Source: Candidatus Binatia bacterium
GTDB taxonomy: Bacteria; Desulfobacterota; Binatia; HRBIN30; BPIQ01
Assembly: GCA_026004195.1 (NCBI GenBank)
Contig: BPIQ01000002.1
Span: forward strand, 62,001-126,000
Length of the DNA stretch: 64,000 bases
Direction: 5' to 3'
Positions 18,912 to 63,412 of this stretch are shown here, piece by piece. Both the position numbers and the translations under genes were made by a program. How positions within the stretch are numbered: the first letter of the stretch is position 1; every line of letters begins with the position of its first letter. The notes under the pieces are model-generated. The model searched no databases, was not told the DNA's origin, and saw nothing but the letters and a program-made list of their open reading frames with translations.

Positions 18912-19565
18912 ATGCCCCCCGCGCTCCGACGGCGCTTTTCCTCGGCTCTCACCTTTCTCGAAAGGCATCCCCTCCTCGAAGCTCCCCTCGTCTTCGCCGT
19001 CGCTTTTCCGGCGGGCCTCTGGCATCCGGTCTTCTGGATTCTCGTCCCTCTCCTCGTCTGGAGAGCGCAGGGGCTCGACGACCGGAAGTTCGGCGTCTGC
19101 TGGGCTTTCGGTAGCCCGGCTTTCCACCTCGTGACTCTCGGGGTCACCCTCGGGGGGTACGCCCTCGCACACGCAGCCGTGGCCCGTCTCTGGCTCCGCC
19201 TCCCCTTCGAGCCACACCTGCCCCGGGACTTCCTGCTCCTCGTCCCACACCATTTCTTCGCCGTGGCCCTTCCCGAAGAATTCCTCTTCCGCGGTTACCT
19301 CCAGACCCGGCTCGACGATGCGTGGGGACGCCCCTACACGCTCCTCGGTGCGCGCTGGGGAGCCGCTCTTCCGGCAAGCGCCGCGGTTTTCGCGCTCTGC
19401 CACCTCGTCCACGGGGACGTGACCCAGCTCAAGGTGTTCTTCTTCGGTCTTCTGGCCGGCTGGCTCCGGGAGAAAACGGGCGGGCTTCTCGCCCCGGTCT
19501 TCTACCACGCCCTCGGAAACCTGCTCCTCGAACTGCTGCTCGCGACTTTTCCGGGAAGAGGCTGA
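18912..19565 (+). CDS. CPBP-family (type II CAAX-like) intramembrane metalloprotease
   Basis: 217 residues with 5-7 hydrophobic segments. Active-site motifs of the CPBP family are complete: Glu122-Glu123-x3-Arg127 in PEEFLFRGYL, His164 and His167 in FALCHLVHGD, and His199-x3-Asn203 in FYHALGNLL. Members include eukaryotic-type prenyl-protein proteases, bacteriocin-immunity proteins and the myxosortases that process MYXO-CTERM tails. Because several proteins in this window end in a Cys + hydrophobic + Arg tail, a sorting role is possible but unproven. Follows tldE by 15 bp. Confidence 0.88.
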   Translation: MPPALRRRFSSALTFLERHPLLEAPLVFAVAFPAGLWHPVFWILVPLLVWRAQGLDDRKFGVCWAFGSPAFHLVTLGVTLGGYALAHAAVARLWLRLPFEPHLPRDFLLLVPHHFFAVALPEEFLFRGYLQTRLDDAWGRPYTLLGARWGAALPASAAVFALCHLVHGDVTQLKVFFFGLLAGWLREKTGGLLAPVFYHALGNLLLELLLATFPGRG

Positions 19566-28731: not shown

Positions 28732-30018
28732 ATGCGGTGGCTTGCCTATACCGTGGGCACGGCTCTGGTGGCCGGTGCTCTCGCCTACCTCTGGTGGTCG
28801 AACCCGGGGTCCGTGGAGCTTCGTCTCGGCGAACGCGTCGTGCTCCATGCTCCGCTCGCGTTGCACTTGCTCGTGGCTTTCGGTGCCGGCGCGGGGCTCG
28901 TGCTCGTCGGCGCCGTCATGCGGGAAAGTCGCCGTGCGGTCGCGGAGTGGCGCCGGCGCAGACGCGCACGCAAAGAAGCGAGGGTGCAGGCGCTCGTGCG
29001 CGAAGCTCGCGAAGCTCTCTGGGCCGGCGCAGCCGACCGGGCCCGAAGCCTTCTTCTGAGGGCCTGGAAGGCCAGGCCGAGTCGGGAAGCCGCGCTGCTT
29101 CTGGCGGAGGCCTGCTTGCAAACGGACTCCGCCGGCGAGGTCCGGCGCCTCTTCGAACAGGCCGAGACCGGAATCGCGGAAGACCCCGACGTCCTCTGGG
29201 CGCTCGCGCGCGTGTGCGAGCAGGTGGGAGACCGGGTCGGTGCGATCACGGCACTCGAGCGCATCCGCGCGCGACACCCGCGTGCGACCCCCGTTCTCTT
29301 GCGGCTGCGCAACCTCTACATCGAGGCGGGGCGGTGGGAAGAAGCCGCGTCCGTACACGCGGCGTACGCGGCAGCCCGGACTCAGACGCCTTTCGACCGC
29401 GAACTTCTGGCCGGTATCCGTTACGAAAGCGCGATGCGCATTCCCGGCCGCGAAGCCCGGCTCTCGGCCCTCGAGGAGATCGTCTCGGCCTACCCGGGCT
29501 TCGTCCCCGCCGCGGTGAGCTTCGGGGACGAGCTCGCGCAGGCGGGCCGGACCACGGACGCCTCCCGTGTCTGGGAGCAAGCTCTCCGGAATAGCCCCCG
29601 TCTCGTCCTGGCCGAACGGCTCGCCTCGGTGGCCGGCGACGCGAAAGCCCGGGAACGCCTCCGCACGCTCGTGCGCAAGCTGCGGGCGAACCGGCTCGAC
29701 GAGAACGCAGTCCGTTGGTTCCAGGCTCGGCTCCACCTCGAGGACGGCAACGACGACGCGGCGGAGAAAGAACTCGAGGGGGTCGCCCCCGAGGCTCGGT
29801 CCACGCCGTACTACCTGACGGCCGGAGACGTCCAGCGCAAGCGACAGCAGAACGCGGAGGCCGCACGGCTTTACCGGGAGGCAGCGACCCTCGCCCCGCT
29901 CTACCGCTGCACGGGATGCGGGCGGGCCGCGAACGGTTGGGTCGCCTTCTGCTCGTCCTGCCGGCGCTGGGACAGCTACCGTGCCGTACTCGATTTCGTG
30001 CGCGAGACTCCGGCCTAG
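28732..30018 (+). CDS. lapB: LapB/HemY-like TPR membrane protein
   Basis: 428 residues. Two hydrophobic segments at about 1-24 and 38-62 (cytoplasmic domain follows a basic WRRRRRARKEA stretch), a chain of TPR-like helices, and a C-terminal rubredoxin-like metal motif YRCTGCGRAANGWVAFCSSC. That layout (TM, TPR, rubredoxin-type) is that of LapB/YciM, the adaptor controlling LpxC degradation by FtsH and thus LPS synthesis. The double membrane segment recalls HemY. Its stop TAG overlaps the stop of the convergent ATPase gene within the same CTAG. Confidence 0.82.
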   Translation: MRWLAYTVGTALVAGALAYLWWSNPGSVELRLGERVVLHAPLALHLLVAFGAGAGLVLVGAVMRESRRAVAEWRRRRRARKEARVQALVREAREALWAGAADRARSLLLRAWKARPSREAALLLAEACLQTDSAGEVRRLFEQAETGIAEDPDVLWALARVCEQVGDRVGAITALERIRARHPRATPVLLRLRNLYIEAGRWEEAASVHAAYAAARTQTPFDRELLAGIRYESAMRIPGREARLSALEEIVSAYPGFVPAAVSFGDELAQAGRTTDASRVWEQALRNSPRLVLAERLASVAGDAKARERLRTLVRKLRANRLDENAVRWFQARLHLEDGNDDAAEKELEGVAPEARSTPYYLTAGDVQRKRQQNAEAARLYREAATLAPLYRCTGCGRAANGWVAFCSSCRRWDSYRAVLDFVRETPA

Positions 30019-31115
30019 GACGGAAAGAGAAACCCGGCCATCCGCTCGAGCCCGCCGAGGTCGTGGACGTCCGTCTCGAAGTTCGGGACGATCGCCACGG
30101 CTACCCTGCGTCCCAGTTGGCGGCGAAACGCATCCATCCGCACCCCCTCGCCGCGCGCAAGCCGCTCGTAGTCGTCGAAGTTCCGCAGGAGACGAGCGGC
30201 GGATTCGGGTCCGACCAGCTCGCGCAGCGTCTGCTCGCCCGCTCCGCGCAGCGGGCCCGTGTCGAACTCACGGTGGATACGGTTGAAGACCACCGCGCGC
30301 AGCGGGATCGAAAGCTCCCTCATGCGGCCGTGGAGATACTCGGCCTGACACAGCACCGGCTCCTCCGCGCTCGTCACGAGCACGAACGCCGTCTCCCGCG
30401 CGCGGAAAAGCTCGTACGCCCGCTCGACGCGCTCCTGGAATCCTTCGAAGAGCCCGGCCATGCCCGTGAAGAATTCCGAGATCTCGAGCAGGACCGAAAC
30501 GCCCGTGGCCTCCTCGAGGCGTTCCAGGACGAAACGGGCCGTGCGGTTCGCCACGCGGAACGCCGACCACCCGGCGGCGACGTAGGGCCGGACGAACCAG
30601 CGGACGATTTTCCGGTCGAGAAACCGCGCGAGGCGGTCGGGGGCTTCGAGAAAGTCGAGAGCGTGCTGGGAGGGCGGCGTGTCGACCACGATGAGATCGA
30701 AGCGCCCGCTCTGCCGCAGCGAACAGAGCTGCTCGATGGCCATGTATTCCTGCGACCCCGCGAAGCTCTCCGAAAGGTGGCGGTAGAATCTGTTGGCGAG
30801 AATCCGGTCGCGGACCTCGGGGTTCGGCGTGAAGCGCTCGACGAGGGCGTCCCACGCACCCTTGGCGTCGAGCATCAGCGCCACGAGGCTTCCCTCTCCT
30901 TCCTGCCGTACCAGAACCTCGCGACCCGGCTCGAGCCCCGCGAGCCCGAGCGCGTCCGCCAGCCTGAGGGCCGGGTCGATCGTGAGCACGACGGCCTTTT
31001 TCCCCTGCCGGGCGGCGTGGAGCCCGATCGCCGCGGCCGTCGTCGTCTTGCCCACCCCACCGCTCCCCGCACAGACGACGACGCGGTGTCCGAGAACGGT
31101 GCCGAGCCCCGTCAT
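30015..31115 (-). CDS. ArsA/Get3-like ATPase, subunit B
   Basis: 366 residues. The deviant P-loop is CAGSGGVGKTTTA (about residues 14-26): it keeps the phosphate-binding Lys of GK(T) but has Ser where the signature Lys of the KGGVGK motif should be. Switch I-like DPALRLADALGL and VVDTPPSQHALDF are present. Members of this superfamily target tail-anchored proteins or act in arsenite extrusion; no arsenic genes lie nearby. It overlaps the companion ATPase by 4 bp and the two are thought to form a heterodimer. Confidence 0.85.
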   Translation of the reverse strand: MTGLGTVLGHRVVVCAGSGGVGKTTTAAAIGLHAARQGKKAVVLTIDPALRLADALGLAGLEPGREVLVRQEGEGSLVALMLDAKGAWDALVERFTPNPEVRDRILANRFYRHLSESFAGSQEYMAIEQLCSLRQSGRFDLIVVDTPPSQHALDFLEAPDRLARFLDRKIVRWFVRPYVAAGWSAFRVANRTARFVLERLEEATGVSVLLEISEFFTGMAGLFEGFQERVERAYELFRARETAFVLVTSAEEPVLCQAEYLHGRMRELSIPLRAVVFNRIHREFDTGPLRGAGEQTLRELVGPESAARLLRNFDDYERLARGEGVRMDAFRRQLGRRVAVAIVPNFETDVHDLGGLERMAGFLFPS

Positions 31116-32095
31116 GCTTCCGAAGCCGCCGCTCGGCTCGCCGCCGCCCGACCGACGAGCCTTTCGCCGAGGCTGCGCACCTCGGCGAGGCCGAACTCTT
31201 CCGAGTAAAGAAAGGGCAGCACGAGGAGGGGAACCGGAACGTGCCGTCGCAGCCGCTCGATGTTCCGGCGGTTGATCGCCACCCAACCGCGTTCCTCCCG
31301 CGCCCGCTCCAGCACCTCCTCGAGAAAGCGTCGCTCGCGGCCTCGGACCGAGGAAAGTCTCGCCGCGAGCGCTTCCACGTCTTCCGGACGGAGCGGGGAC
31401 TCGTGGACGCGGTTCACGACGACGCAGGGCACGGGAAAGCGCAGCTCCCCGGCGAGCTTGGCGTACATCGTGAGCGTTTCGTTGATCGGGATTTCCTCGG
31501 CCGTCGTCACGATCACGTACGCCGTCTTCTTCCCGTCCCTCAGGAGCTCGAGCACCCGCAAGGATTCCTTGCGGACGAGACCTGCGCCGAACGTTTCGGC
31601 CGCCGCCTGCGGCATGGCGAAGTACTGGAGGGAGTGGCCGGTGGCCGGTGCGTCCACCACGACGAGGTCCCAGAGCGGAGTCCCGCTCTCGGACTCCGTC
31701 CGCTCGGCTTCGTACCAGATCTTACCGACGGTCATGAGTTCTTTGAGCCCCGGAGCCGCCGCGACGAAGTACTGGTAGATCTTGCTCCGGAAGACGGCCT
31801 GGATGACCCGGCGCACCGGAACGACCAGGGTGAGGTACTCCTCGAGCGCCGCTTTTCCCTCGACCGCCATGGCGAAGAGCCCCGGAACGGGCGTCGCCAC
31901 CGCGACACCCGGGTCCCGGAGCGGCACTCCCAGGAACTGAGCCGTCCGCCCCACTCCGTCCACCTCGACGAGCAACGTCTTCTTTCCCGCTCGCGCCGCC
32001 TCGAGGGCCAGGGCCAGCGCCACGGTCGAGCGGCCCACCCCTCCTTTCCCCACGACCGTCAAAAGACGGCGGTCGAGGAGCTCGCGGACATTCAC
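31112..32095 (-). CDS. ArsA/Get3-like ATPase, subunit A
   Basis: 327 residues, GTG start overlapping the fabF stop (GTGA). Its P-loop reads VVGKGGVGRSTVA: the signature Lys is present but the phosphate-binding Lys is Arg. It keeps VEVDGVGRTAQFLG and VVDAPATGHSLQYFAMPQ. The defect is complementary to that of the downstream subunit. Pairing resembles the actinobacterial Get3-like BagA/BagB. Likely cytosolic. Confidence 0.85.
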   Translation of the reverse strand: MNVRELLDRRLLTVVGKGGVGRSTVALALALEAARAGKKTLLVEVDGVGRTAQFLGVPLRDPGVAVATPVPGLFAMAVEGKAALEEYLTLVVPVRRVIQAVFRSKIYQYFVAAAPGLKELMTVGKIWYEAERTESESGTPLWDLVVVDAPATGHSLQYFAMPQAAAETFGAGLVRKESLRVLELLRDGKKTAYVIVTTAEEIPINETLTMYAKLAGELRFPVPCVVVNRVHESPLRPEDVEALAARLSSVRGRERRFLEEVLERAREERGWVAINRRNIERLRRHVPVPLLVLPFLYSEEFGLAEVRSLGERLVGRAAASRAAASEA

Positions 32096-33342
32096 GAAGG
32101 ACCCCAGCGCCGGAAGGCGAGACACGCGTTCGTGCCGCCGAAGCCGAACGAGTTGGAAATCGCCACCCGAATGTCCGCCGGCCGAGGCCGGTTGGGCACG
32201 TAGTCGAGGTCGCACTCGGGGTCGGGATCTTCGTAATTCCACGTGGCGGGAAGCACGCCCCGCGAAAGCGCGAGAAGCGTGTACGCCGCTTCCACGGCGC
32301 CGGCCGCACCGAGGAGATGCCCCGTCTGCGATTTCGTGGAGCTCACGGCGAGCCGATACGCGTGCTCCCCGAAGACTTTCTTGATGGCCTGCGTCTCGAC
32401 GATGTCGTTGTACGGGGTCGAGGTACCGTGCGCGTTGATGTAGTCGACGTCCCGGGGTTCGAGGCCGGCATCTCGGAGCGTCTCGACGAGGCACCGGGCC
32501 GCGCCTTCGCCCTCGGGCGCAGGTGCGGTGATGTGGTGCGCGTCCGCCGTGGCTCCGTAACCCAGGATCTCGCCCAAGATCCGGGCCTTTCTCCGGAGAG
32601 CGAACCCGAGCTCCTCGAGCACCAGGATCGCTGCCCCTTCGCCCACCACGAACCCGTCCCGGCCGCGGTCGAACGGCCGGCTGGCCCGCTCGGGCTCGTC
32701 GTTGCGGGTCGAGAGGGCCTTCATGACGGCAAATCCACCGACGCCGAGCGGCGTGACGGCCGCCTCCGAGCCACCGGCGAGCATGACCTCGGCGTAACCG
32801 TCGCGGATCCTGTGGAAGGCCTCGCCGATCGCGTGGTTGCCGGAAGCACAGGCGCTCGTCGTCACGTAGTTGGGGCCCTTCCAGCCCAGATGGATGGCGA
32901 GCTGACCGGAAGCCATGTTGGCGATCAGCCGGGGGACGAAAAACGGGCTCACGCGTTTGAGACCGTCTCGGAAATAGGCGAAGAGGTTTTCCTCGATCGT
33001 TTCGATCCCGCCCATTCCCACGCCGAGGACGATACCGGCGCGCTCCCGCGCGTCCGGCTCGAGCTGCAAGCCGGAATTTTCGACGGCCATACGAGCTGCC
33101 GCAACCGCGAAATGGGAGAACCGGTCCATCCGGCGCGCTTCCCGTTTCTCGAGGAAGTCCTCCACGCGGAAGTCCTTCACCTCGGCGGCGATCCGGACCG
33201 GAAAATCCGAGGCGTCGAATCGCGTGATGGGACCCACGCCCGAACGCCCCTCGAGCAGCGCCTGCCAGTTCGGCTCGACGCCCACGCCCAGAGGGGTGAC
33301 GAGCCCCATCCCGGTCACGACCACACGGCGGCCGAGACTCAT
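32092..33342 (-). CDS. fabF: Beta-ketoacyl-ACP synthase II
   Basis: 416 residues. Catalytic triad is complete: Cys165 in TTSACASGNHAIGEAF, His305 in NAHGTSTPYND, His342 with Lys337 in KSQTGHLLGAAGA. Elongates acyl-ACP in fatty-acid synthesis. No acpP or fabG is adjacent; instead the gene leads into two ArsA-like ATPases through a 4-bp overlap. Confidence 0.95.
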   Translation of the reverse strand: MSLGRRVVVTGMGLVTPLGVGVEPNWQALLEGRSGVGPITRFDASDFPVRIAAEVKDFRVEDFLEKREARRMDRFSHFAVAAARMAVENSGLQLEPDARERAGIVLGVGMGGIETIEENLFAYFRDGLKRVSPFFVPRLIANMASGQLAIHLGWKGPNYVTTSACASGNHAIGEAFHRIRDGYAEVMLAGGSEAAVTPLGVGGFAVMKALSTRNDEPERASRPFDRGRDGFVVGEGAAILVLEELGFALRRKARILGEILGYGATADAHHITAPAPEGEGAARCLVETLRDAGLEPRDVDYINAHGTSTPYNDIVETQAIKKVFGEHAYRLAVSSTKSQTGHLLGAAGAVEAAYTLLALSRGVLPATWNYEDPDPECDLDYVPNRPRPADIRVAISNSFGFGGTNACLAFRRWGPS

Positions 33343-33351
33343 AGAGCCCGA

Positions 33352-33379
33352 CTTATGCCCGGGCGAATCGACCCGTCAA
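33352..33379 (-). promoter_or_regulatory. Sigma70-like promoter for fabF operon
   Basis: Minus-strand TTGACG (33374-33379, 5 of 6), a 16-base spacer and CATAAG (4 of 6). It overlaps the final codons of the subtilase gene and would start transcription near 33345, again within a few bases of the fabF ATG at 33342. Confidence 0.45.
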
Positions 33380-35619
33380 GGCGCGGGCGGGAAAAGGACT
33401 CCGACGAGACAAACGAGGTCCGCTACGGTCTCCCTGCCGTCTCGGTTGCAGTCGAGCGAACAGGAACGCCCGGGTTCGAAAAGAGCCGGCACCGCGGCCT
33501 CGAGATCGGCCTGGTCGAACCGCCCGCTGCAGTCGACGTCACCGGGCAGCGACGCGGTGGGGGTCGCGGTGGCGCTCCGCGAGGGAGTGGGCGTGGCGGT
33601 CGGGCCCGCCGGGCTCGCAGTGGGGGTGGGGGACGGAGAGGGTGTAACGGTCGGAGTCGCCGTGGCAGGGCGGCCTTCGAGGACGGCCTCGACGGCCGAA
33701 AGGATATCGAGCTTTCCGAACCCCCATCGATCGTTCGGCACGCTTCCGGTCGACGCGTCGCTCCGGGCGACTTCGGCAAGCAGCCGAGCCACCTCGGATC
33801 CGTCGAGCGTGGGATCTACCTCGAAGAGAAGGGCGACCGCGCCGGCCACCTGCGGCGCCGAGAAGCTCGTCCCGCGCCCGACTACGTGGAAGCCCGAAGG
33901 CGCGATCCTGGCAGGGTCCGGCGGTACTCCCGCAAGACCCGAGCCCGAGCCATCCGCGGCCGACCAGGCCCCGAGAACCACCTCGCCGCCGGTCACGAGG
34001 TCGGGCTTGGGACGCCCGTCCCGCGTGGGACCCACGCTCGAAAACGAGGCGAGCTCTCCCGGAACCACGGCCGGGTCGTGGATGGGGCCTACCTGACTCG
34101 GCCAGTCGACCCTCGCCGAAAAGGCTCCCACCGTGATGGCCCCCCGGGCCGTGCCCGGCTCGGCCACCGACATTCTGCCGTCGGCGTCCCGGCGGAACTC
34201 CTGGCCGTAGGCGGACCAGCAATCGAAGTGCCCGAGCCGGACGCCACCCTCGTCTCTCAGGTAGAACTCCCATACCCCCGCGGAGATCGGTGCCGAGCCC
34301 GTGGTGGGCTCGACCAAAAAGAGAACCTCACGGTCGCCGTTCGAGGGATCGGGCTCTCCGACGCAAGCCGTCACGGTGTTCACGGGATTGCGCGTCTCGC
34401 CGCAATTCCCCGGCCGGACGTTCGCGTCGGACCGCCCGAGACCGTTCGGATCCCGGAACCCCACGTCCACCACGTCTTCCCCCGAAAGCCAGCAATCGAC
34501 GAGAATCACGTCGGCTTCGCCCCGCTGGAGCAGCTCGAGGGTGTGGCCCCCTCGTGCCGAGCCTGCTGCATGGATGGCCTGCGCGCCTTCGTTCCCCGCC
34601 GAAACCACGACGGCACGACCTGGTTTCCGGGAGAACTCCTCGATCGCGATCTCTTCGGGGGAGCTTCCGTCGTGGGCTCCCGTGTGCCCACCGAAGCTCA
34701 TGTTCACGACGACGGGGCGCCCGAGCTCCTGCGCGCGCTCCTCCACCCAGGCGAGTGCGGCCACCACGTCCCCGTCGATCGTCGGGTCCTGCTTGCTCCT
34801 TCCCCCGAGCCGCACGACCAGAAGTTCGCTCTCGGGTGCGACGCCCACGTAAACCGGGTCCTCCGGAGCTCCGGCGCTTCCGTCACCTGCCGCGGCACTG
34901 GCCACGAGCGTGCCATGACCCACGAGGTCGAGAGACCCGACGGTGCGCCGGCCGTCCAGTGCCGCTTCGAGGTCTTCTTTCGTGTACACCGTGCCCATCG
35001 GAGTTCCGTCTTCCCGGAGAACCGGGGGAGCACGTCCCGTGCTCCCGCCGCTCGCGAAAAAGGAATCGTCGAGCTGATCCCAGAGGAAGAGGACACGCGA
35101 GCTTCCGTCCGGCCGAAGAAAGTCCTCGTGCCGGAAGTCGATTCCCGTGTCCAGGACGGCAACGAGCACCCCACGGCCCGCGAGCCCCGTCGTCTCGCGC
35201 GCGACCCGAGCGCCGTTCTCCTCGGTATTGACGTCGAGGTGCAGGCGGAAACTTCGGGGTAGGGCCATGCGGAACACGCCGGCCTTACGGGCGAGCTCCG
35301 AAAGCTCCGCCCGCGAGAAGCTACCCGACGCCACCCTGCCGATGCGAGCGTCGAGCGCGAATCCTTCGTTCTCGAGGTCGGTGAGAACCCCGGGCCGGCT
35401 CGCCACGACGTAGGCACGCAAAGACCCTCCGGACACCGGCGCAGCGCCACCCCCGCCTCCGGTGAGTTTCGCCCCTGTCCGAAGGTCCAGCTTCGGGGGC
35501 ACCTCGCGGCTCGCGACCGCCTCGTACGCCCCCGACGCTCCTGCCAGGCCCCGCAAACCCAACCAGAGAGCGAGCCAGAACCCCGCGAAGACTACCATCC
35601 GGGCTCGGTCCGGGTGCAA
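33376..35619 (-). CDS. Secreted subtilisin-like serine protease with dockerin-like C-terminus
   Basis: 747 residues. Signal peptide about 1-28. The S8 catalytic domain has Asp157 (AVLDTGIDFRHEDF), His235 (DLVGHGTLVAS), Asn343 (VVVSAGNEGA) and Ser585 (GRGTSFSAPQVAGA), with a large 200-residue insert between Asn and Ser. A Thr/Pro/Ser linker (650-690) leads to two EF-hand-like repeats (GDVDCSGRFDQADLEAAV, LDCNRDGRETVADLVCL), a dockerin type I pattern at 693-743. Probably secreted and anchored through a cohesin partner. Follows the cohesin-like gene by 25 bp. Confidence 0.9.
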   Translation of the reverse strand: MHPDRARMVVFAGFWLALWLGLRGLAGASGAYEAVASREVPPKLDLRTGAKLTGGGGGAAPVSGGSLRAYVVASRPGVLTDLENEGFALDARIGRVASGSFSRAELSELARKAGVFRMALPRSFRLHLDVNTEENGARVARETTGLAGRGVLVAVLDTGIDFRHEDFLRPDGSSRVLFLWDQLDDSFFASGGSTGRAPPVLREDGTPMGTVYTKEDLEAALDGRRTVGSLDLVGHGTLVASAAAGDGSAGAPEDPVYVGVAPESELLVVRLGGRSKQDPTIDGDVVAALAWVEERAQELGRPVVVNMSFGGHTGAHDGSSPEEIAIEEFSRKPGRAVVVSAGNEGAQAIHAAGSARGGHTLELLQRGEADVILVDCWLSGEDVVDVGFRDPNGLGRSDANVRPGNCGETRNPVNTVTACVGEPDPSNGDREVLFLVEPTTGSAPISAGVWEFYLRDEGGVRLGHFDCWSAYGQEFRRDADGRMSVAEPGTARGAITVGAFSARVDWPSQVGPIHDPAVVPGELASFSSVGPTRDGRPKPDLVTGGEVVLGAWSAADGSGSGLAGVPPDPARIAPSGFHVVGRGTSFSAPQVAGAVALLFEVDPTLDGSEVARLLAEVARSDASTGSVPNDRWGFGKLDILSAVEAVLEGRPATATPTVTPSPSPTPTASPAGPTATPTPSRSATATPTASLPGDVDCSGRFDQADLEAAVPALFEPGRSCSLDCNRDGRETVADLVCLVGVLFPPAP

Positions 35620-35644
35620 GCCCGGGGCCAGGGAGCCTCCGCCC

Positions 35645-36562
35645 CTACGTCGGGCGCTCGGCAGAAAAAGAACGCCGCCTCAAGAGCGCCAGAACGAGCC
35701 CTGGAAGGAGCGCCCAGAACAGCGAGGGCGTTCCGCCGCTGCGAACGTCGCAGTCGCACCCGCCGCCTCCGCGCCCCCTCCCTGGTCCTGCCGTCGGCTC
35801 GGCCGTCGGAGTTCCCCCACCTTCCGGCGCTCCGGCCGTAGGCGTAGGTGTCCGCGCGGGAGGCGACGGAGGCGTGGGTTCCCCGCCGTCCGGGGGCGAC
35901 GGCGTCGATGTTGGCGGGGCCACGGCGAGGACGACGACGATCGCTCCGTCTACCGCACGTGCTTCCATTTCGCGACCGAAAGTGTCGCCCACCTCGAGGA
36001 AAGCCGTCCGCAAAGGAAAGGTCCCCTCCACCGGGCCAGCGCGAAACCGGCAAGAAAACAGCGTCCCGTCACCGAAAGCCTGAACGGGCGGCTCCGTGTC
36101 CACCAGACCCAGGATCAGAGGAACCCGCCGAGTCCCGGGGGCCGGAAATACGCCCAGGTGGGTGGCCGCCAGTCGAGCATCCACGTCGCAACCTTCGTAA
36201 GAAAGATTGTCGACATCGAAGTGAATATCGCCCAGGTAAGTCGCCGCCCTGTCCTCCCCCCCTTCGGCACGAAACGCGACCGTTGCCACGCCCCCTGGAG
36301 GCACGGTCTCCGTGCTCGAATGGATCGTGACCACTGCAAGGAGTGGGGGGCAGAACGCGAGAGAAAAAACGAAAGGCAAAACCCCGAGACCGTAGGGGCC
36401 AAAAAGAAAAAGCAGGGGACCCGAAGGTCCCCTGCTCGAATTCCGACGGGGGAAAAAGCCGCGCTCAGCGGCGGCGCCGGAAGAAGAAGAGCACGGCAGC
36501 CGGTACCAGGAGCCAGAGCCCGGAGCTTCCGCCGCGCGTCCCGATCTGACAACCGTCGTCAT
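35645..36562 (-). CDS. Cohesin-like surface protein with C-terminal sorting tail
   Basis: Up to 305 residues; the real start is probably an internal TTG near residue 61, before a signal-like LPFVFSLAFCPPLLAVV, because the first 60 residues read through an upstream terminator hairpin. The core (TETVPPGGVATVAFRAEGG to EARAVDGAIVVV) has the beta-sandwich pattern of cohesins. A Thr/Pro/Gly linker follows, then GGGCDCD, a hydrophobic stretch (LFWALLPGLVLALL) and RRRS, a MYXO-CTERM-like tail. A possible binding partner for the dockerin proteins on either side. Confidence 0.75.
   Translation of the reverse strand: MTTVVRSGRAAEAPGSGSWYRLPCSSSSGAAAERGFFPRRNSSRGPSGPLLFLFGPYGLGVLPFVFSLAFCPPLLAVVTIHSSTETVPPGGVATVAFRAEGGEDRAATYLGDIHFDVDNLSYEGCDVDARLAATHLGVFPAPGTRRVPLILGLVDTEPPVQAFGDGTLFSCRFRAGPVEGTFPLRTAFLEVGDTFGREMEARAVDGAIVVVLAVAPPTSTPSPPDGGEPTPPSPPARTPTPTAGAPEGGGTPTAEPTAGPGRGRGGGGCDCDVRSGGTPSLFWALLPGLVLALLRRRSFSAERPT
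36401..36436 (-). terminator. Strong intrinsic terminator (UUCG tetraloop)
   Basis: A perfect 11-bp stem AGCAGGGGACC / GGTCCCCTGCT with a TTCG loop on the minus strand (36411-36436), followed at once by TTTTCTTTTT (36401-36410). It ends the transcript of the broken cohesin-like gene at 36465 and precedes the intact cohesin-like gene. Confidence 0.9.
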
Positions 36563-37295
36563 CGTCCCCGCCTGCCTTCGTCGGTGTCGCCGTGGGCGGA
36601 CGGGGGGTGGTCAGGGTAGCCGTCGGCGTTTCGGTCGGGGTCGACGTCACGGTCGGCGTGCTCGTGGGCGGACGGAATCCGGACCTGGATGGTGCCGTCC
36701 GAAGCCGTGGCGTCGAGCACGTTGCCCACCGCGTCGCCGACTTCGAGGAACTCCGTGGAAAGCGGAAAGTCGCCCGTCGTTTTCTCCCGCCCGAAAGTTA
36801 CAGGAAAACATGGGGCCGTCGCCGAACGTGTTGACGCGGAGGACTGGTGTCGAGAACGGCCAGGATCAGAGGAGAGCCGGCACCCTCGGCCGGGAACTGA
36901 CCGATGTGGGTCGCCTGGAGTCTCTCGTCCAACTCGCAGCCTTCGAACGTGAGATTCGCCGTGTCGCAACGCCACGTCCGCGGTGTAGGTCGCCACATTG
37001 TCGCTCGATCCCGAAATCGAAAAGGTGACCGTCGCGACCTCGCCAGCGCCACCGTGACGGACTCGGAGCTCCACGGTGATTTGAGCCCGCGCCATCCCCG
37101 GCCACACCAGGAGCCAGAACGACTGCCAAGACTCCTGCACCCGGCATCATTCCTCGCATCGACCTCTTCGCCCGGCTGTCCCGCGACGCTACCGGCCGAG
37201 ACCGTAGCTTGCGCAAAAACCCGAGAAGAGCCCAACAAAAGGACAAGCGCCAAGGCCGTAGGACAGAACTTCTTCAGCATACCCAAGCTCGCCAT
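36465..37295 (-). pseudogene. Cohesin-like anchored protein split across reading frames
   Basis: Read as a whole it is a paralogue of the intact gene downstream: signal peptide (MASLGMLKKFCPTALALVLL), cohesin-like core, Thr-Pro linker and tail DDDDGCQIGTRGG...FFFRRRR. The pieces occur in different frames: 37295 frame (signal, TVSAGSVAGQPGEEV), then GVLAVVLAPGVA, then QITVELRVRHGGAGEVATVT, then TANLTFEGCELDERLQATHI, then NTFGDGPMFSCNFRAG, then TTGDFPLSTEFLEVGD, then TSTPTETPTATLTTP. Each step needs one base skipped. The part before QITVEL may be the remnant of a second gene. A ribosome binding site (AAAGGAG) and a terminator are intact. Confidence 0.7.
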
Positions 37296-37338
37296 CTTTT
37301 CACTCCTTTCCCGATCCGAAATTCGTTCGGTTCCCTTC

Positions 37339-37866
37339 TTACTGGTGAATGGACGACACGCACGCCTCCCCGAGACCCTGCCGATCGTAGCGCGGTAACG
37401 AGGGAAGCAACGACTGCCTGAAACAAGTCACCACGTCGCTGTTGACGAGACTCCCGTTCCCGCCGCAGACAGGGGGATTGTCCGGAGGTGCCGAGTCCAT
37501 CGCCGAGAAACGTGCCGTATCGGCCGGCGGTCGAGCCGTGGCCAGTAGGGACGCTCTGAAAATCGCCACGATGTCCGCGTTGTTGATAGTACCGTTTCCG
37601 AACTGGCCAGCATCGTCGCCACTGGAAGGCACGACGTCACACACGAGGAAGGCTGCTTCGGGCCCTCCCGTAGCCCCGTCGCTCGGAGCTTGCTCGAAGC
37701 TCACTTCCACGTGCACGACATCGCCCACGCGTCCTTCCGCGCTACCGACACTCACCTTGACGCACTGGTCGGGGTCGGGGCACGCAACCAGCTGCGCGGA
37801 AGCCACGGAAACTCCCCACCCCAAGCCGCCGGCAAGCGCAAGCACCCAGCCGAGCCGATTCCTCAT
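37339..37866 (-). CDS. Secreted dockerin-like protein with cohesin-like N-terminal remnant
   Basis: 175 residues. GAGGAGG precedes the ATG at 37866. Signal peptide 1-24 (ending SVASAQ). Residues 35-56 (VKVSVGSAEGRVGDVVHVEV) look like the first strands of a cohesin-like domain that is otherwise missing. Two EF-hand-like repeats follow, GNGTINNADIVAIFRASLL and GNGSLVNSDVVTCFRQSLL, the second with an added Cys, as in dockerins. Function unknown; likely part of a surface complex. Confidence 0.75.
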   Translation of the reverse strand: MRNRLGWVLALAGGLGWGVSVASAQLVACPDPDQCVKVSVGSAEGRVGDVVHVEVSFEQAPSDGATGGPEAAFLVCDVVPSSGDDAGQFGNGTINNADIVAIFRASLLATARPPADTARFSAMDSAPPDNPPVCGGNGSLVNSDVVTCFRQSLLPSLPRYDRQGLGEACVSSIHQ

Positions 37867-37885
37867 GACAGTTCCTCCTCGGTTT

Positions 37886-39337
37886 TCACCCTTGACCTTC
37901 TGCCACAAACAGGGCCATGGCGACAAGGTCTGCCGCCGAAATTTTCTCGTCTCCGCTCGTATCCACTCCGGGCCCACTTTGTAAAGCCCCACCGGCTACC
38001 TGGATCACACCGTCCCCGTCCCCGTCGAAAATCTCCGACAAGATCCGGTCGAGGTCGGCTTCGTCGACACGGCCGTCCACGTTCGCGTCGCCCACGGCGA
38101 GGACCGCCTCGTTGAAAAGGACGGAAACGGCGTCCTCGGGGTCCTCCGAGTCGCGGTTCGCCGTGACGAGATCTCGCCTTCGGTCCCCGTCGAGATCCCC
38201 GCTCGCGACGGAAACGGGGCCCGAGCCTCCGATCTCGAAGTCCTCCCTCGTCTCGAACGTGCCGTCGGCACGGCCCCGTAGAACGCTCACCGCGTCGGCG
38301 TCACCCACGGTACCCGTCACCGCAAGGTCCGGTCTTCCGTCGAGGTTGAAGTCCCAGGCGGAGACCGCCGCCGGAAACTCGCCCACGGGCACGGCACCGA
38401 CGCCCGCGAACTCGCCGCCGCCCGTACCTTGCAGGATCGACAGCGTGAAATCGTCCTCGTCGACCGTCACGATGTCGGGATGGCCGTCGATATCGAGATC
38501 GACCACCTCGAGGGCGATCGGGCCCTCGCCCACGAGAAAGTTCCGGGGCTCTCCGAACGTGCCGTCCCCGTTTCCTGGCAGTACGGCCACGTTGGCGCCG
38601 TCGGTGTTGGCAGCCACGAGGTCCACTCTACGGTCTCCGGTCACGTCGATGGCACGGACCGCCCACGGGCCGGTGAAAAGCTCCGAATCCTCGGGCACGG
38701 TCTCGAGCTCCAGGGCAAGGCAACTCCCCTCGCCGCAGTCCGAATCCGTATCGCAGGGCATCCCATCCGCGCAAGCTCCGGCAAAAAACGTTCCGTCGCC
38801 CCGCCCGAACCTCACGGAGAGAGTTCCCACGAGCTCGAACGCGTTGGCCGTCACGGCGTCGAGCATGCCGTCTCGATTCAGGTCCGCCACGTCGAGCCCC
38901 GTGGGCCCCTCGCCGGTTTCCACCTCGACGCTTTGCGTGAACGTACGTGGCGGCCCCTGGACGAGGACGAGGAGCACTCCGGCGATGTCGTGGGCCACGA
39001 CGATGTCGGGGAGGCCGTCCCGGTTCATGTCGGCGACCCTCACGGCAGACGGCCCCGCGGCAACGGGAAAGTTCGACGGCGAGCCGAAGGTCCCGTCCCC
39101 GTTACCGAAGAGGACGCTCACGTCGTCGGAGTCCGCGTTCGCCACGACGATATCCCTGGCAGCATCTTTGTCCACGTCGGCTACGACCACCGCACTGGCT
39201 GCGGGGCCGGCAGGCAACTCCACGCTCGGGGCAAAAGCGCTCGGTACGTCGGATCCGACGGCTGCGGGCGCGGGCGAAGCCACCACGCCCGCGAAAAGAC
39301 ACGCCAAACCGAACGGTGCCAAACGGCGCATACGCAT
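37886..39337 (-). CDS. Secreted FG-GAP/VCBS propeller protein with dockerin-like tail
   Basis: 483 residues; signal peptide 1-26 (VVASPAPAAV). About seven repeats of the form VADVDKDAARDIVVAN / GNGDGTFG form an integrin-alpha-like beta-propeller with Ca-binding DxDxDG-type loops. One Cys-rich insert (CADGMPCDTDSDCGEGSC) resembles the repeats of the giant proteins at 55-63 kb. The C-terminus (GDANVDGRVDEADLDRIL, VDTSGDEKISAADLVAMALF) is a dockerin pair. GGAAAGGAA precedes the start. A probable adhesin or surface scaffold. Confidence 0.87.
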   Translation of the reverse strand: MRMRRLAPFGLACLFAGVVASPAPAAVGSDVPSAFAPSVELPAGPAASAVVVADVDKDAARDIVVANADSDDVSVLFGNGDGTFGSPSNFPVAAGPSAVRVADMNRDGLPDIVVAHDIAGVLLVLVQGPPRTFTQSVEVETGEGPTGLDVADLNRDGMLDAVTANAFELVGTLSVRFGRGDGTFFAGACADGMPCDTDSDCGEGSCLALELETVPEDSELFTGPWAVRAIDVTGDRRVDLVAANTDGANVAVLPGNGDGTFGEPRNFLVGEGPIALEVVDLDIDGHPDIVTVDEDDFTLSILQGTGGGEFAGVGAVPVGEFPAAVSAWDFNLDGRPDLAVTGTVGDADAVSVLRGRADGTFETREDFEIGGSGPVSVASGDLDGDRRRDLVTANRDSEDPEDAVSVLFNEAVLAVGDANVDGRVDEADLDRILSEIFDGDGDGVIQVAGGALQSGPGVDTSGDEKISAADLVAMALFVAEGQG

Positions 39338-40670: not shown

Positions 40671-41366
40671 TCAGCTCGCCCCGAAACGCTCGACGGCACG
40701 CAGAAGCCCCGGGCTCGCGTTGGCCCGAGCTTCGACGCGAGCGTTCAGGTCGGCGATGTCGAGGCCGTCCGTGGTGCGCGAGAGATCGTCGACGAGACGG
40801 GTGAGCTCGCCGATTTCTTCCGGGCTGAACGCGCAAAGGCTCGCCCCGGGAGACGCCGACCGGTAGGCGAGAACGAGCCGGACGACGGTTTCACTGACAG
40901 CGCTCAGGTCCTGCTCGAGGGCGAAGACGAAGGCTCGAATCCGGGTGCTCCCGGCACCGACCTGAAGAAGGAGGCCACAGTCTCCCACGCCCACCCCTCC
41001 GAGCAACGGTACGGAGAACCTTCCCGCCTCGGTCACGTCCGAGGCCAGAAACAACGGCTCGTCGATCTCGCCGTCCGCCGCGTCCCCGTCGTCGGCAAGG
41101 TAAAGACCCACGCGCTCGGGCGTCCTCACCGGCAGGACGGAGGGAGCCAGGGCAAAGGCATCCGGGACGATGCTCCCGAGGAGGAACCCCCAGGGGCTTT
41201 CCAGCCTGGCGAAAATTCCCTGCGGCACGAGAACTTCCCCTACCACTCTCGGCGGGGGCGGCGTCGGAGGGACAGCGGGAAAGCGGGCATCGATTTCCGC
41301 GTCGTGACCGCAGGCCGCGCAGAGGACGAGTACGAAAACGGGGAAAGCCGGAAAAAGTCGTCTCAT
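40671..41366 (-). CDS. Lipoprotein of unknown function
   Basis: 231 residues from the ATG at 41366. Signal peptide with lipobox LCAAC, lipidation at Cys19. A short Pro-rich linker (PPTPPPPRVV) leads to a region with several beta strands (EVLVPQGIFARLESPWGFLL, VGLYLADDGDAADGEI) and a helical C-terminus (DIADLNARVEARANASPGLL). No family recognised. Convergent with moaA, 7 bp apart. TTGACT is present upstream but without a clear -10. Confidence 0.75.
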   Translation of the reverse strand: MRRLFPAFPVFVLVLCAACGHDAEIDARFPAVPPTPPPPRVVGEVLVPQGIFARLESPWGFLLGSIVPDAFALAPSVLPVRTPERVGLYLADDGDAADGEIDEPLFLASDVTEAGRFSVPLLGGVGVGDCGLLLQVGAGSTRIRAFVFALEQDLSAVSETVVRLVLAYRSASPGASLCAFSPEEIGELTRLVDDLSRTTDGLDIADLNARVEARANASPGLLRAVERFGAS

Positions 41367-41499
41367 GGCGAGCGCGCCCCAGAACAAAAACTGACCACCA
41401 AGAAGCTCGGAGAGTCAAGGAAATTCCGCCTTCGGGGCCGACCTTTTTCGCTGGACTCGGAACGGAAGCTCGGATAGCCATCGAAAAAAGGGCCTTCCC

Positions 41500-52033: not shown

Positions 52034-53525
52034 ATGAACCGACGCGGCCCCTCGCTTCTCGCGTGCGCCTTCGTTCTCGTGGCCGCTTTCGCTCCGGACG
52101 GAAAAGCGTCGCTCTGCGTCGGGGACTGCGACGCGAGACGGAAGGGTCGTCGTGTCGGAACTCCAGCGCGCTTTCGGAGTGCTCGCCGGAGTCCGGCCTC
52201 TTTCGGTCTGCGAAGCCGCCGATGGGGATCGGGACGGAGAGGTGACGACGGGAGAGTTCGAAGCGGCCATCCGCTCGGTCTTCTCGACTCCCGAGACTTG
52301 CCCGCGGATCCAGCCGCAGGCCCCGGGAGCCTGCTTCGATGCGCGGGTCGTCCCACTCGAGGAAGAAGGTCAGCCCGTGGCGCTCGCCCTCGGGAACCTC
52401 GACTTCGATCCGTTTCCCGAGGTTCTGGTCGTCGATTCGGCGGCTCATTCGATCGTCGTCCTGGACAACCGCGGCGGACGGAACGTCGTTCTGTCCGGAC
52501 CCTCGCGCTTCGTCGGCGACAACACGTTCCCGTCCTCCGTCACGACCTTCCGCAAGAACCTGGACCAGCTCGACGACTTCGCGATCGTTCGGGCGGCGAC
52601 CGCCGAGGAAGAAAGCGCGGAGATCTGTCTCGGTTGCCTCACCTACTGGCAGAGCAGCGGCGACGTTTTCCTCCCGCGGACCCTTGCGGTGGGTCTCGAC
52701 CCCGTGCAGGTCCTCGCCGCCGACCTCGATCGCGACGGCGACGACGACCTGGTCGTCGCGAACTCCGCCGACGACACGTTGACGGTTCTCCGAAACGATG
52801 CCTCCGACGGCTTCCCCGAAAGGCGAGACCTCCGGACAGCGTCCTTTCTCTCCGCCGCCACTGCGGCCGACGTGGACGGTGACGGTCTTCCGGAGCTCCT
52901 CTCCGCGGGTCTCGACGGAGTGACGATCCACCGGAACTCGGGCGAGTTCGCGTTCTCGAGCTGTCCCGACTGCCCTCTCCTGCCCGCGCGGGGCGCCGCC
53001 GTTTTCGTCGAGGTCGCCGACCTGGACGGAGACGGGAGAGCCGACCTTCTCGTCGGCGAAAGCTTCCCCTCTCTTCTCTCGGTGCGGCGGGGCCTGGGCG
53101 GCGGAGAATTCGAGGACACCCCTCGCCAGCTCGCCCTCGAAGACGAACCGGGCAAGGGGAAAACGGGGGACTTCGACGGAAACGGAAGGCGCGACGTGGC
53201 GGTGACTTTGCCGAACGCGGATACGGTGGTCCTGTTCTTGCAGCGGCACGACGGGACGTTCGATCGTCTCGAACTCTCGCCCCCGCCGGGTGCGGGCCCG
53301 AGCGACCTCGCGGTGGGCGACCTCGATCTCGACGGCCGGCTCGACCTGGTCGTCGCGGCCGAGGTCGAGAGCACGATCACGTTCTACTTCGGAGACCCCT
53401 GTCCGGATGCGTCCCGTCGATCGCGGCCCTGGTCCCCCGCGCGAACGCCGTCGCGCTCGATCACGATCGCGTACCGAAAAAGTCGCTCGTCGAGCGCACC
53501 GCGCACCTCGCGGCCGTTCAGGTAG
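52034..53525 (+). CDS. Secreted dockerin-VCBS protein, frameshifted after the signal peptide
   Basis: The signal peptide (ATG at 52034, RGPSLLACAFVLVAAFAPDG) and first dockerin residues LCVGDCDA are in one frame; the remaining 450 residues (body readable from GTG at 52152) are in another. Skipping base 52136 joins them into a standard EF-hand loop, GDCDADGRVVVSELQRAF. The second loop is DGDRDGEVTTGEFEAAI, then a propeller of about six FG-GAP/VCBS repeats (AADLDRDGDDDLVVANSAD, GDLDLDGRLDLVVAAEV). The last 40 residues run into the antisense of the VKOR gene and may not be real. Confidence 0.72.
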
Positions 53526-61248: not shown

Positions 61249-63363
61249 ATGCCGCCCCGGGCTCGGGCGTGTTCGTGACGGTGGGTGTTTGCGTGATCGT
61301 GGGGGTGTCCGTCACGGTCGGCGTTTGCGTCGGGGTGTCGGTCGGACCGGGCGTCGGCGTGTCCGTCGGCGTCGACGTCGGAAGCGCCACTTCGATCGCG
61401 CCGTCCGTACCGCCGACAGGCACGGGATTTCCCGAAGCGTCCGAAGCGTCGGGCGTGTTGGCAAGCACCTTCGTACCGAGACTCGCTCCCGGGAGGATGT
61501 CGAAACGGCACCGGAACAGCTCGCCGTCGGGAATGGGGTTGGCGTTGGGACTCGCCGGCGGAACGGCCGCGATCCCCACTCGCAGGACCTTGGCCCCGGG
61601 CACGGAGCCGGGAGCGAAGCCCGCGACGAGCGCCTTGTCCACGGCCGTGCCCGGGCCGATCGCCGGATTGATCGTGCAGTCGGGAACGCCGCCCACGAGC
61701 GGCACGTCCACCTGCGAGTCGTCGAAAACGATGTCGTTCGAGGTCGCCACCACCACTCCACCGCCGTTCGACAACGTCACCGGGACCTCGACCTGCACGC
61801 CCGGGGGGCCGCTCGCGGTCCCCACGTCGATCGAAGCCGTGACGGCCGGCGTGGGAGTGGCCGTGTCCGTGGCGGTGGCCGTCGGGGTGGGCGTGGCCGT
61901 GGGGAAGGTTGGCGTGAACGTAGGAGTCGGGAACGTGGGCGTCGGGTGTCGGCACGCCCGGCTCGATCTGGCAGGCCTGGTTGCAGCCGTCGCCGTTCGT
62001 CCGGTTGCCGTCGTCGCACTCCTCGTGTTTCTGGACGACGAGGTCCCCGCACTTGCTCGGCAGGCACTTGAGGCGCAGCGAGTCCGTGTCCACCTTGCCG
62101 AAGGCATCCGTCACACGGATGCGCAGTGTCTTGGACCCCCGCCGCAGGCGACCCGACGCGCTCACCTTGAGCGGAACCACGACCTCCCGGAAGTTCGTGC
62201 ATTGATCGGGCGTCGTCCTGGGAGCTCCGCTGGAGACCACCGTATCCCTGCGCACCACCGTGACGCCGAGTCCTGCGGGAAACGGGTCGGCCCCGAGCCC
62301 TTCCAGAGTCGAGAGAATCGCCGAATCTTCGGGGCCCAGGAGCTTTGCCGGATTCGGCCGCCTCACCTCGAGCGTCGAGACGTCGGAGGGTTCGCACGTA
62401 GGAAGGCGGGGGTCGTGGTTGTTGGCGCAAAGGCCCACGAGGAACGTACACGCCCCGTCGCCGACGACGGGTTCCGCGTCGCAGCGGGGATCGCCTTCGA
62501 AGCAGAGGATTCGCTGTTTGGGAAAGCCGTTCCGACGTTTTTCGGGCTCGACTGCCGTGATCCACTCGAGAAAGCAGTCCGTGCTCTTCCTTCCTCCACC
62601 CGGAATGCAGCGGTTATCGGTAAACCCGCCCGTGCATTCTGGCGGGATGGGCGTGGGCGTCGCGGTGGGCGTGGGCGTGAGCGTCGGCGTCGCGGTCGGA
62701 GGAGCCACGACGAGAACGAGCCTGGGCCTCTGCCCGGCAGGTCCCTCGCGCGAGGTGTAGTCCACGCGGCCGCTGGCACCCTCGTCCGTCTTTTTCACGA
62801 TCCATCCGAAGTTCGGAGTGCCGGTGAGAAAAGCCACCACGTCGGCCGTCACGTCGAACTGGACGTAACCGGAGGTGGAATTCGTGTGGAGAACGCTGTC
62901 CGTGGCCGCAGCGGCGAAAATGCCGCCATCCCACTGCGAGGGACAGTCGGCCGAACCGTTCGCGGTGTTCGTGTCGTCGGGGCAATTCCACGTGACCCCG
63001 GATTCGGTCCAATCGACTCCGAGCCTGTGGACGTCGACCGTCCTGCCGCTTCCCCAGTTCGTCGCGGACTCGACGAAAAGTTCGAGCGTGGCGGAGACGA
63101 GCGCGAGCGAGCCCACGGCCGCTGCGATCTGTCGCCTGATCGAAACGGACGAGCGCGCGGTTCACGCTCGCGCTGCGGACGACGAGCGGCGAGGTCGCGC
63201 CTTCGTTGACGTTGGGCGAGCCTTTACGGAGGTAAGAATCCGCGACGGGCGAAAGCGTCGTCGTCTGCGCCGGAGCGGAAGCCGCCGCGAAGAGCAAACC
63301 CAGGACGAGCCCGAGCTTCGTCGCCCTCCGGATCTTCGTCTCTCCCCCCTCTTCCGTGGTCAC
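59138..63363 (-). pseudogene. Giant Cys-rich repeat protein, copy 2, split in three frames
   Basis: Paralogue of copy 1: signal peptide (LGLVLGLLFAAASAPAQ) and DNRLRE start in one frame from GTG at 63363, the rest of that domain to QACQIEPGVPTP in a second frame, and the remainder in a third frame that is open to the stop at 59138. Skipping base 63132 restores RFDQAQIAAAVGSLALVSA; skipping a base at 61946-61949 restores the Thr-Pro linker. Unlike copy 1 it has a cohesin-like domain (SIDVGTASGPPGVQVEVPVT to GGTDGAIEVA) before the Cys-rich repeats. The promoter lies before 63375, so GTG 63396 is excluded. Confidence 0.75.
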
Positions 63364-63381
63364 GGTACCCCGTCCCTTCGC

Positions 63382-63412
63382 CTTATACCCCGGCACCGGA
63401 CGGGGTCGTCAA
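63382..63412 (-). promoter_or_regulatory. Promoter of giant Cys-rich gene copy 2
   Basis: Minus-strand TTGACG (63407-63412) and TATAAG (63382-63387) with a 19-base spacer. Start expected near 63375. Same TTGACGACCC sequence as upstream of copy 1. Confidence 0.55.

Follow-up and report, generated by a model that had tools for sequence, protein, structure and literature searches.

The window analysed here is a stretch of 64,000 nucleotides (G000:C2:62001-126000) from the genome of a Candidatus Binatia bacterium, which is 3.63 Mb in size, comprises 6 contigs and is 98.9% complete. Five adjacent genes at positions 33376-39337, all on the minus strand, form the locus under study (Table 1). These are: a secreted subtilase, an anchored cohesin protein (named 35645 after its first position), a second cohesin gene, a cohesin-dockerin adaptor gene (37339) and a secreted beta-propeller protein. 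The original prediction, made from the sequence alone, had described them as a cohesin/dockerin gene set. This outline holds, with two qualifications for the source genome: the second cohesin gene is broken up between frames, and 37339 is truncated. For comparison a class sample of 140 genomes with a completeness of at least 80% was used; the order is represented by 15 genomes in four families, the source genome being the sole representative of its family. The output of a gene finder served as a rough guide only.

Since the raw Pfam models missed the cohesins and dockerins of the cluster, lineage profiles were built. The first cohesin seed consisted of 30 segments in total, namely those of 95-150 residues, with ten loci removed and the window cohesin added. 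Because these first profiles contained window sequences, a relatives-only cohesin profile was made from the 23 remaining seed segments, none of them from the source genome itself, and used for the claim. With this profile the open reading frame (ORF) 35648-36610 scored 55.7 bits (E 2.1e-15) over profile positions 7-137 of 137; 3695 shuffled ORFs of the window gave no match at E<=10. A further alignment, A1, comprises 36 sequences, namely 35 of 43 cohesin segments and the window cohesin. Its profile found 26 matches among the PDB sequences at E<=1, and 25 of these were cohesins (best 6kgc, E 2.5e-13), the remaining one being a ribosomal protein at E 0.84. Four of the matched cohesins bear other PDB labels (endoglucanase twice, cell-wall anchoring protein twice); the fold search names these entries cohesin structures. 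Judged by its sequence, the 35645 protein is a cohesin. Pfam PF00963 gave no match on it at E<=1. The cut-off of this model is exceeded by members in 18 of the 140 class genomes, which are linked to 35645 through the family profile, and we therefore read the missed cut-off as a limit of the Pfam model.

A template-free model of the 35645 cohesin domain, computed from four sequences, was of middling confidence (predicted local distance difference test, pLDDT, 63.6; predicted template modelling score, pTM, 0.60). In a Foldseek search with this model cohesins filled ranks 1-45, including the non-cellulosomal 2xdh of Archaeoglobus, with a best E of 1.3e-3. VIA-align placed cohesins at Z 10.4 with a root mean square deviation of 2.9 and 127 aligned residues; 49 of its 50 rows were cohesins and the single other row was the adhesin domain 9ifr (Z 7.2). 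The predicted model, within its middling confidence, points to the beta-sandwich fold of cohesins. Additionally, two cysteines are invariant in all 36 cohesins of A1 and possibly form a disulphide. Among eight segments outside A1 that were inspected by eye, both cysteines were present in five, not both in L059 and L066, and neither in L064.

The cohesin domain of 35645 is followed by a threonine/proline-rich (T/P-rich) linker and a MYXO-CTERM tail. The whole protein passes the TIGR03901 cut-off of 20 with 21.3 bits, and the tail of the second cohesin gene scored 23.4 bits. Throughout the source genome TIGR03901 had only two matches at E<=0.001, both in the cohesin genes of the cluster. Within the order 41 such tails were found in 14 of the 15 genomes; at least 13 of the 41 share an ORF with a cohesin, and two more do so with a weaker cohesin match, as seen by eye. 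The window also encodes a candidate processing enzyme, an intramembrane protease of the CPBP type, which passes the NF040914 cut-off of 100 with 102.3 bits and holds the sole NF040593 match of the source genome. It fell short of the cut-offs set for the named enzymes, MrtX (105 versus 180 bits), MrtC (103.4 versus 195), MrtP (117.4 versus 250) and MrtZ (68.5 versus 325), and is therefore regarded as a member of the myxosortase family that is none of these. MrtX-like matches, none above the MrtX cut-off, occurred in 14 of the 15 order genomes and in 4 of 14 control genomes as well. In Myxococcus the myxosortase cuts the tail and is required for proper surface display (PMC11980579).

For the second cohesin gene, the relatives-only profile gave 21.7 bits in one frame; further pieces of it lie in other frames. 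The expected cohesins with anchoring tails were thus recovered fully in 35645 and, in the gene at 36465, with the cohesin split over frames. The adjacent 37339 had been taken for a dockerin protein. We rejected this assignment: the lineage dockerin profile (A2, see below) did not recognise it, and it corresponds instead to the N-terminal part of the adaptor that relatives have at this position (44.7 bits, positions 17-87 of the 329 of the adaptor profile), with most of the cohesin missing. In turn, hhalign relates the N-terminal domain of the adaptors to the cohesin profile with a probability of 93.8.

The dockerin alignment A2 was built from 26 of 44 segments (one of them trimmed) and the window module; segments from outside the order and a few others were left out. 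It shows two repeats of a calcium loop plus helix, as in dockerin type I. Both loops fit our calcium-loop pattern in 20 of the 27 modules, at a spacing of 28-33 residues (32 residues in 13 of the 20); in the subtilase module one loop only fits. A single-chain dockerin model was poor (pLDDT 54.3, pTM 0.28) and contained two helices only. The modules of the window are called dockerin-like here because they missed the cut-off of the Pfam model Dockerin_1, which is passed by six other ORFs of the source genome. The profile search suggested at the outset turned out in two ways: lineage profiles matched the cohesin, and Pfam Cohesin and Dockerin_1 stayed below cut-off in all ORFs of the cluster.

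The subtilase is assigned by its catalytic domain (Peptidase_S8, 114.6 bits, E 7.2e-33), and D-T-G, H-G-T and G-T-S, which we take to be the subtilase motifs, are seen by eye in its translation. The EF-hand pair attributed to it was found again, with dockerin scores that are circular, as the module is row 1 of A2 and possibly part of the earlier dockerin seed. In the propeller protein (FG-GAP_3, 146.9 bits) the predicted dockerin is weak, with 18.9 bits (E 0.006) against A2 and 27.7 bits against the earlier dockerin profile; its counterparts in six relatives carry clear modules of 50-60 bits, the one of G077 being itself in the profile. Two outlying domains of the original prediction, a dockerin at 52 kb and a cohesin at 61 kb, were both retrieved. 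The 52 kb module is absent from A2, so its score comes from outside the seed; PF00404 gave no match on this protein at E<=0.001. By eye, a signal-peptide-like stretch and the first loop of the 52 kb gene lie in another frame. Across the source genome A2 matched 46 places at E<=0.1, of which 36 were below 1e-3, the module of the propeller protein in the cluster not being among the 36.

The cargo of these proteins was surveyed by a Pfam scan of 35 of the 36 dockerin-like ORFs of the source genome, omitting a 78-residue fragment in L016. Propeller domains exceeded their cut-off in seven ORFs (FG-GAP in four; kelch, YncE and BNR in one each), and a second YncE-like match lay below it. Two ORFs carried protease domains (S8 and M10). 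An RHS protein, a P-domain, a gluconate dehydrogenase subunit and a Dictyostelium-repeat match were found once each, and 19 of the 35 had no Pfam domain besides the dockerin. The only carbohydrate-active domains were one GH53 and one pectinacetylesterase; the former stands with a dockerin-like module in L219 998-2671, the latter in L032 2985-4952. Pfam detected no polysaccharidase domain in the ORFs of the cluster. The absence of polysaccharidases that had been noted is hence true of the cluster and not strictly so of the genome as a whole.

Comparison of the region in the order showed that a FabF-type ketosynthase gene is followed by two tandem ArsA/GET3-like ATPase genes in all 15 genomes, with or without the cohesin set; in two genomes the last gene is cut by a contig end. 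Upstream of FabF, 10 of the 15 genomes, which are those of families f1, f3 and f4, have a cohesin whose tail is MYXO-CTERM-like; the cohesin profile used for this survey contains the window cohesin itself and part of the surveyed loci. This FabF-side cohesin adjoins FabF directly or with one gene in between, either a subtilase gene or, in G075, another ORF. The subtilase-dockerin gene occupies this place in three of the ten (the source genome, G076 and G077). In all seven genomes whose contigs reach far enough, the source genome with its truncated adaptor included, the cohesin is preceded by genes for an adaptor (a divergent cohesin plus a dockerin) and a propeller with a dockerin. The contigs of G073 and G074 show an adaptor-like dockerin and a cohesin before they end, that of G072 a cohesin only.

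A1 cohesins were present in all 15 order genomes with at least 298 matches (6-34 each, the best 28 candidates per genome being scored) and in 2 of the 125 other genomes of the class; the Pfam cohesin model matched in 14 of the 15 and in 6 of the 125. Within the order the numbers of these cohesins and of Pfam dockerins per genome are correlated (Spearman 0.75, n=15, again with the best 28 cohesin candidates). In L104, L108 and L112, from three relatives, the order dockerin-cohesin-dockerin was seen by eye after propeller-like repeats.

Table 1. Position and assignment of the genes and domains of the locus and its surroundings (window coordinates)
Feature	Position	Strand	Basis
Secreted S8 subtilase, C-terminal dockerin-like module after T/P-rich linker	33376..35619	-	Pfam, profiles
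Dockerin-like EF-hand pair of the subtilase	33394..33540 (C2:95394-95540)	-	A2 56.8 bits; earlier profile 38.0 bits (circular, see text)
Anchored cohesin protein 35645: cohesin, T/P-rich linker, MYXO-CTERM	35645..36562	-	profiles, TIGR03901, fold search
MYXO-CTERM sorting signal of 35645	35672..35767	-	TIGR03901 27.1 bits on this stretch
Cohesin domain of 35645	35933..36328	-	relatives-only profile 55.7 bits; fold search ranks 1-45 cohesins
Second cohesin gene, in pieces in several frames; its MYXO-CTERM at 36468-36554	36465..37295	-	outer limits inferred
Truncated cohesin-dockerin adaptor, N-terminal cohesin part kept	37339..37992	-	adaptor profile; Pfam Cohesin 15.2 bits, below cut-off
Secreted FG-GAP (VCBS-type) beta-propeller, weak C-terminal dockerin-like module at 37907-38089	37886..39337	-	Pfam, profiles
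Myxosortase-family CPBP intramembrane protease, candidate processing enzyme	18912..19565	+	NF040914 Mrt_core
FabF-type ketosynthase, conserved neighbour	32092..33342	-	15/15 order genomes
Two tandem ArsA/GET3-like ATPases, conserved neighbours	30018..32104	-	beside FabF
Lipoprotein without cohesin, homologous to N-terminal domain of multi-cohesin lipoproteins	40671..41387	-	sequence search
FG-GAP protein, N-terminal dockerin-like module at 52134-52277	52038..53522	+	A2 48.9 bits; FG-GAP_3 106.4 bits
Second open cohesin domain of the window, within ORF 59138-62107	61388..61831	-	A1 120.4 bits; relatives-only profile 102.4 bits

Further cohesins are scattered over the source genome, where the A1 profile had 14 matches at E<=0.1. 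Five of these fall within one open ORF of 2203 residues on C1 (L035 1717-8325; C1:1356.2-1362.8 kb), which has long T/P-rich linkers and resembles a scaffoldin; its C-terminal part reads like repeated domains that we take to be of the DUF11 type. Lipoprotein-like ORFs with several near-identical cohesins are located at C2:132-136 kb. Here, four cohesin repeats lie in two lipoprotein-like genes (L016 10283-13162; C2:132.3-135.2 kb), and three of the repeats match the reference copy at 96.7-98.0% DNA identity, two of the three with frame-shifting single-base indels. The lipoprotein at 40671 in the window shares 32% identity (E 1e-17) with the lipoprotein ORF L016:12579-14903 and reached 87.7 bits. 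The 61 kb cohesin reached 24.9 bits with its neighbours and 21.7 bits in another scan with the Pfam model (cut-off 24.1). Its gene (59138-63396) seems to start near 63.3 kb, where a signal-peptide-like stretch lies in a different frame, and Cys-rich repeats downstream of the cohesin were seen by eye. The second ArsA-like ATPase resembles mycobacterial BagB (314.4 bits, below the cut-off of 521).

Taken together, we consider it reasonably probable that the five genes represent one member of a lineage-wide non-cellulosomal cohesin-dockerin surface system, likely serving proteolysis and binding or adhesion. The 35645 protein would be exported and its MYXO-CTERM tail cut by a myxosortase-family protease, for which the enzyme in the window is the candidate. 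Cleavage would leave the cohesin exposed at the cell surface, with the T/P-rich linker as a flexible stalk. The dockerin-tagged propeller and the subtilase may then plug into this cohesin via calcium-dependent contacts, and in relatives the adaptor may do so too and could lengthen the chain. Secreted proteins held in this way would be kept at the surface and not lost, and the likely job would be surface-held proteolysis and propeller-mediated binding or adhesion and not the breakdown of cellulose. An anchored cohesin with a dockerin-bearing protease and propeller, acting on something other than cellulose, had been proposed beforehand; profile, fold and PDB matches and the kept gene order support it in the main.

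Several observations weigh against this interpretation. None of the Foldseek matches of the 35645 model, itself of middling confidence, reached E 0.001. The second cohesin gene is divided between frames, with its MYXO-CTERM in yet another ORF, and the adaptor gene of the source genome is truncated. TIGR03901 confirms 4 of the 10 FabF-side tails (G000, G069, G071 and G075), and the other six were recognised by a pattern of our own. Five genomes of family f2 have FabF-ArsA-ArsA and no cohesin in the stretch examined, which upstream of FabF was readable over about 4 kb in G064 and about 2.4 kb in G066. Against PF00404 the subtilase had no match and the FG-GAP protein 12.0 bits versus the required 22.9. 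The A2 profile resembles EF-hands generally, the best 60 of its 507 PDB matches being calmodulins and other calcium-binding proteins. The correlation of the domain counts falls to 0.48 (p 0.07) when calculated per Mb. Finally, in families f8-f11 each of the 13 genomes listed (G078-G090) carries between 4 and 28 Pfam dockerins, and lineage cohesins were found in two of them (one each) and a Pfam cohesin in one. As these genomes are rich in dockerins and nearly free of cohesin matches, the EF-hand module also occurs where no cohesin is recognised. The general rule that a dockerin implies a partner cohesin was rejected on the same families.

The split and truncated genes would fit the decay of a formerly functional complex, of which little beyond the 35645 cohesin and the subtilase is intact in the source genome. 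Such decay would also agree with the split frames in the cohesin genes at C2:132-137 kb and in the 52 kb and 61 kb genes, and with a propeller dockerin that is weak here and strong in relatives. We regard it as rather unlikely, given that 35645, the subtilase and the five-cohesin ORF are all open and that errors in the assembly may account for the frame breaks. Open reading frames in the source genome are likewise seen for FabF, for the two ArsA genes and for a MoaA-like gene. Decay would be compatible with the surface system as the best explanation for the relatives.

It also appears unlikely that the cohesin-like modules and the EF-hand modules act separately, as surface domains stabilised by calcium that serve adhesion or spacing and do not pair, with genes of secreted proteins simply clustering. 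The dockerin-bearing f8-f11 genomes, the EF-hand-like best matches of the dockerin profile and the adhesin domain among the 50 fold rows speak for such domains. These are countered by the adjacency of cohesins and dockerins in a gene set that three families have retained, by best sequence and fold matches that are cohesins, many of them solved in complex with dockerins, and by the joint rise of both counts in the order. A conventional cellulosome degrading plant polysaccharides is highly improbable: of the dockerin-bearing polysaccharidases on a multi-cohesin scaffoldin that characterise it, the cluster has none, and genome-wide two of the 35 dockerin-like ORFs are carbohydrate-active versus seven with propellers and two with proteases.

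Beyond the non-cellulosomal surface system at this locus, we tentatively suggest, at somewhat less than an even chance, that the order evolved a general surface socket for protein capture or adhesion. It would combine cysteine-bearing cohesins displayed by myxosortase with lipoprotein and five-cohesin scaffoldins, and its clients would largely be propellers, proteases and unknown domains. The sorting enzyme of the source genome would then serve few substrates other than cohesins.

If cohesin and dockerin bind each other, the locus would represent a surface system of this kind whose anchoring mode was not found in the literature searched and whose clients are for the most part not carbohydrate-active. 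The conserved set is a small testable unit of one anchor, one propeller, one adaptor and, in some genomes, one protease, and bears on what non-cellulosomal cohesins and dockerins do. Furthermore, new orthogonal cohesin-dockerin pairs might be obtained from it. The literature search, mostly outside the scope of subscription papers, returned no paper containing both 'dockerin' and 'MYXO-CTERM', and none of the papers retrieved in another search joined 'dockerin' with the names Binatia or Binatota.

Among known systems, ScaE of Ruminococcus flavefaciens carries a single cohesin that is anchored by sortase through an LPXTG-type signal to a Gram-positive cell. It shares with 35645 the combination of one cohesin and a C-terminal sorting signal as surface anchor, and differs in the use of an LPXTG sortase versus the myxosortase type here. 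Clostridium thermocellum has an S8 protease that carries a double dockerin and binds preferentially to ScaD, a scaffoldin held at the cell (PMC12484212). The clostridial cellulosome has in common with our locus a dockerin-bearing S8 protease, a surface-anchored cohesin and adaptor scaffoldins, whereas here a single dockerin-like module, another anchor, a cluster without cellulases and two invariant cohesin cysteines (in the 36 aligned) were found. The Limousia mucinolysome (PMC12997984) and the Ruminococcus bromii amylosome (PMC9112005) are cellulosome-like complexes for other substrates as well. These act on mucin glycans and starch, respectively, whereas propellers predominate among the recognisable clients here and no Pfam domain other than the dockerin was detected in over half.

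Archaea, anaerobic methanotrophic archaea (ANME) and the sulfate-reducing partners of ANME are known carriers of non-cellulosomal cohesins and dockerins (PMC9012536; PMC10553843), and a survey of 305,693 genomes reported bearers of non-conventional scaffoldins (PMC11557425). The archaeal and ANME-partner systems likewise use these domains outside cellulose degradation, and single ANME proteins can hold as many as five cohesins (PMC9012536; PMC10553843). The partners of ANME are sulfate-reducing bacteria, and S8 protease domains are among the listed adhesion-related proteins (PMC10553843). The present system differs from these in its anchoring, which is of the MYXO-CTERM type, in having propellers and proteases as clients, and in a gene set conserved beside FabF-ArsA-ArsA. 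The MYXO-CTERM/myxosortase proteins of Myxococcota (PMC11980579) have the same type of tail and the same protease family; here the substrates are cohesins. The kind of system is already known, and its anchor, its clients and the conserved gene set are the new part.

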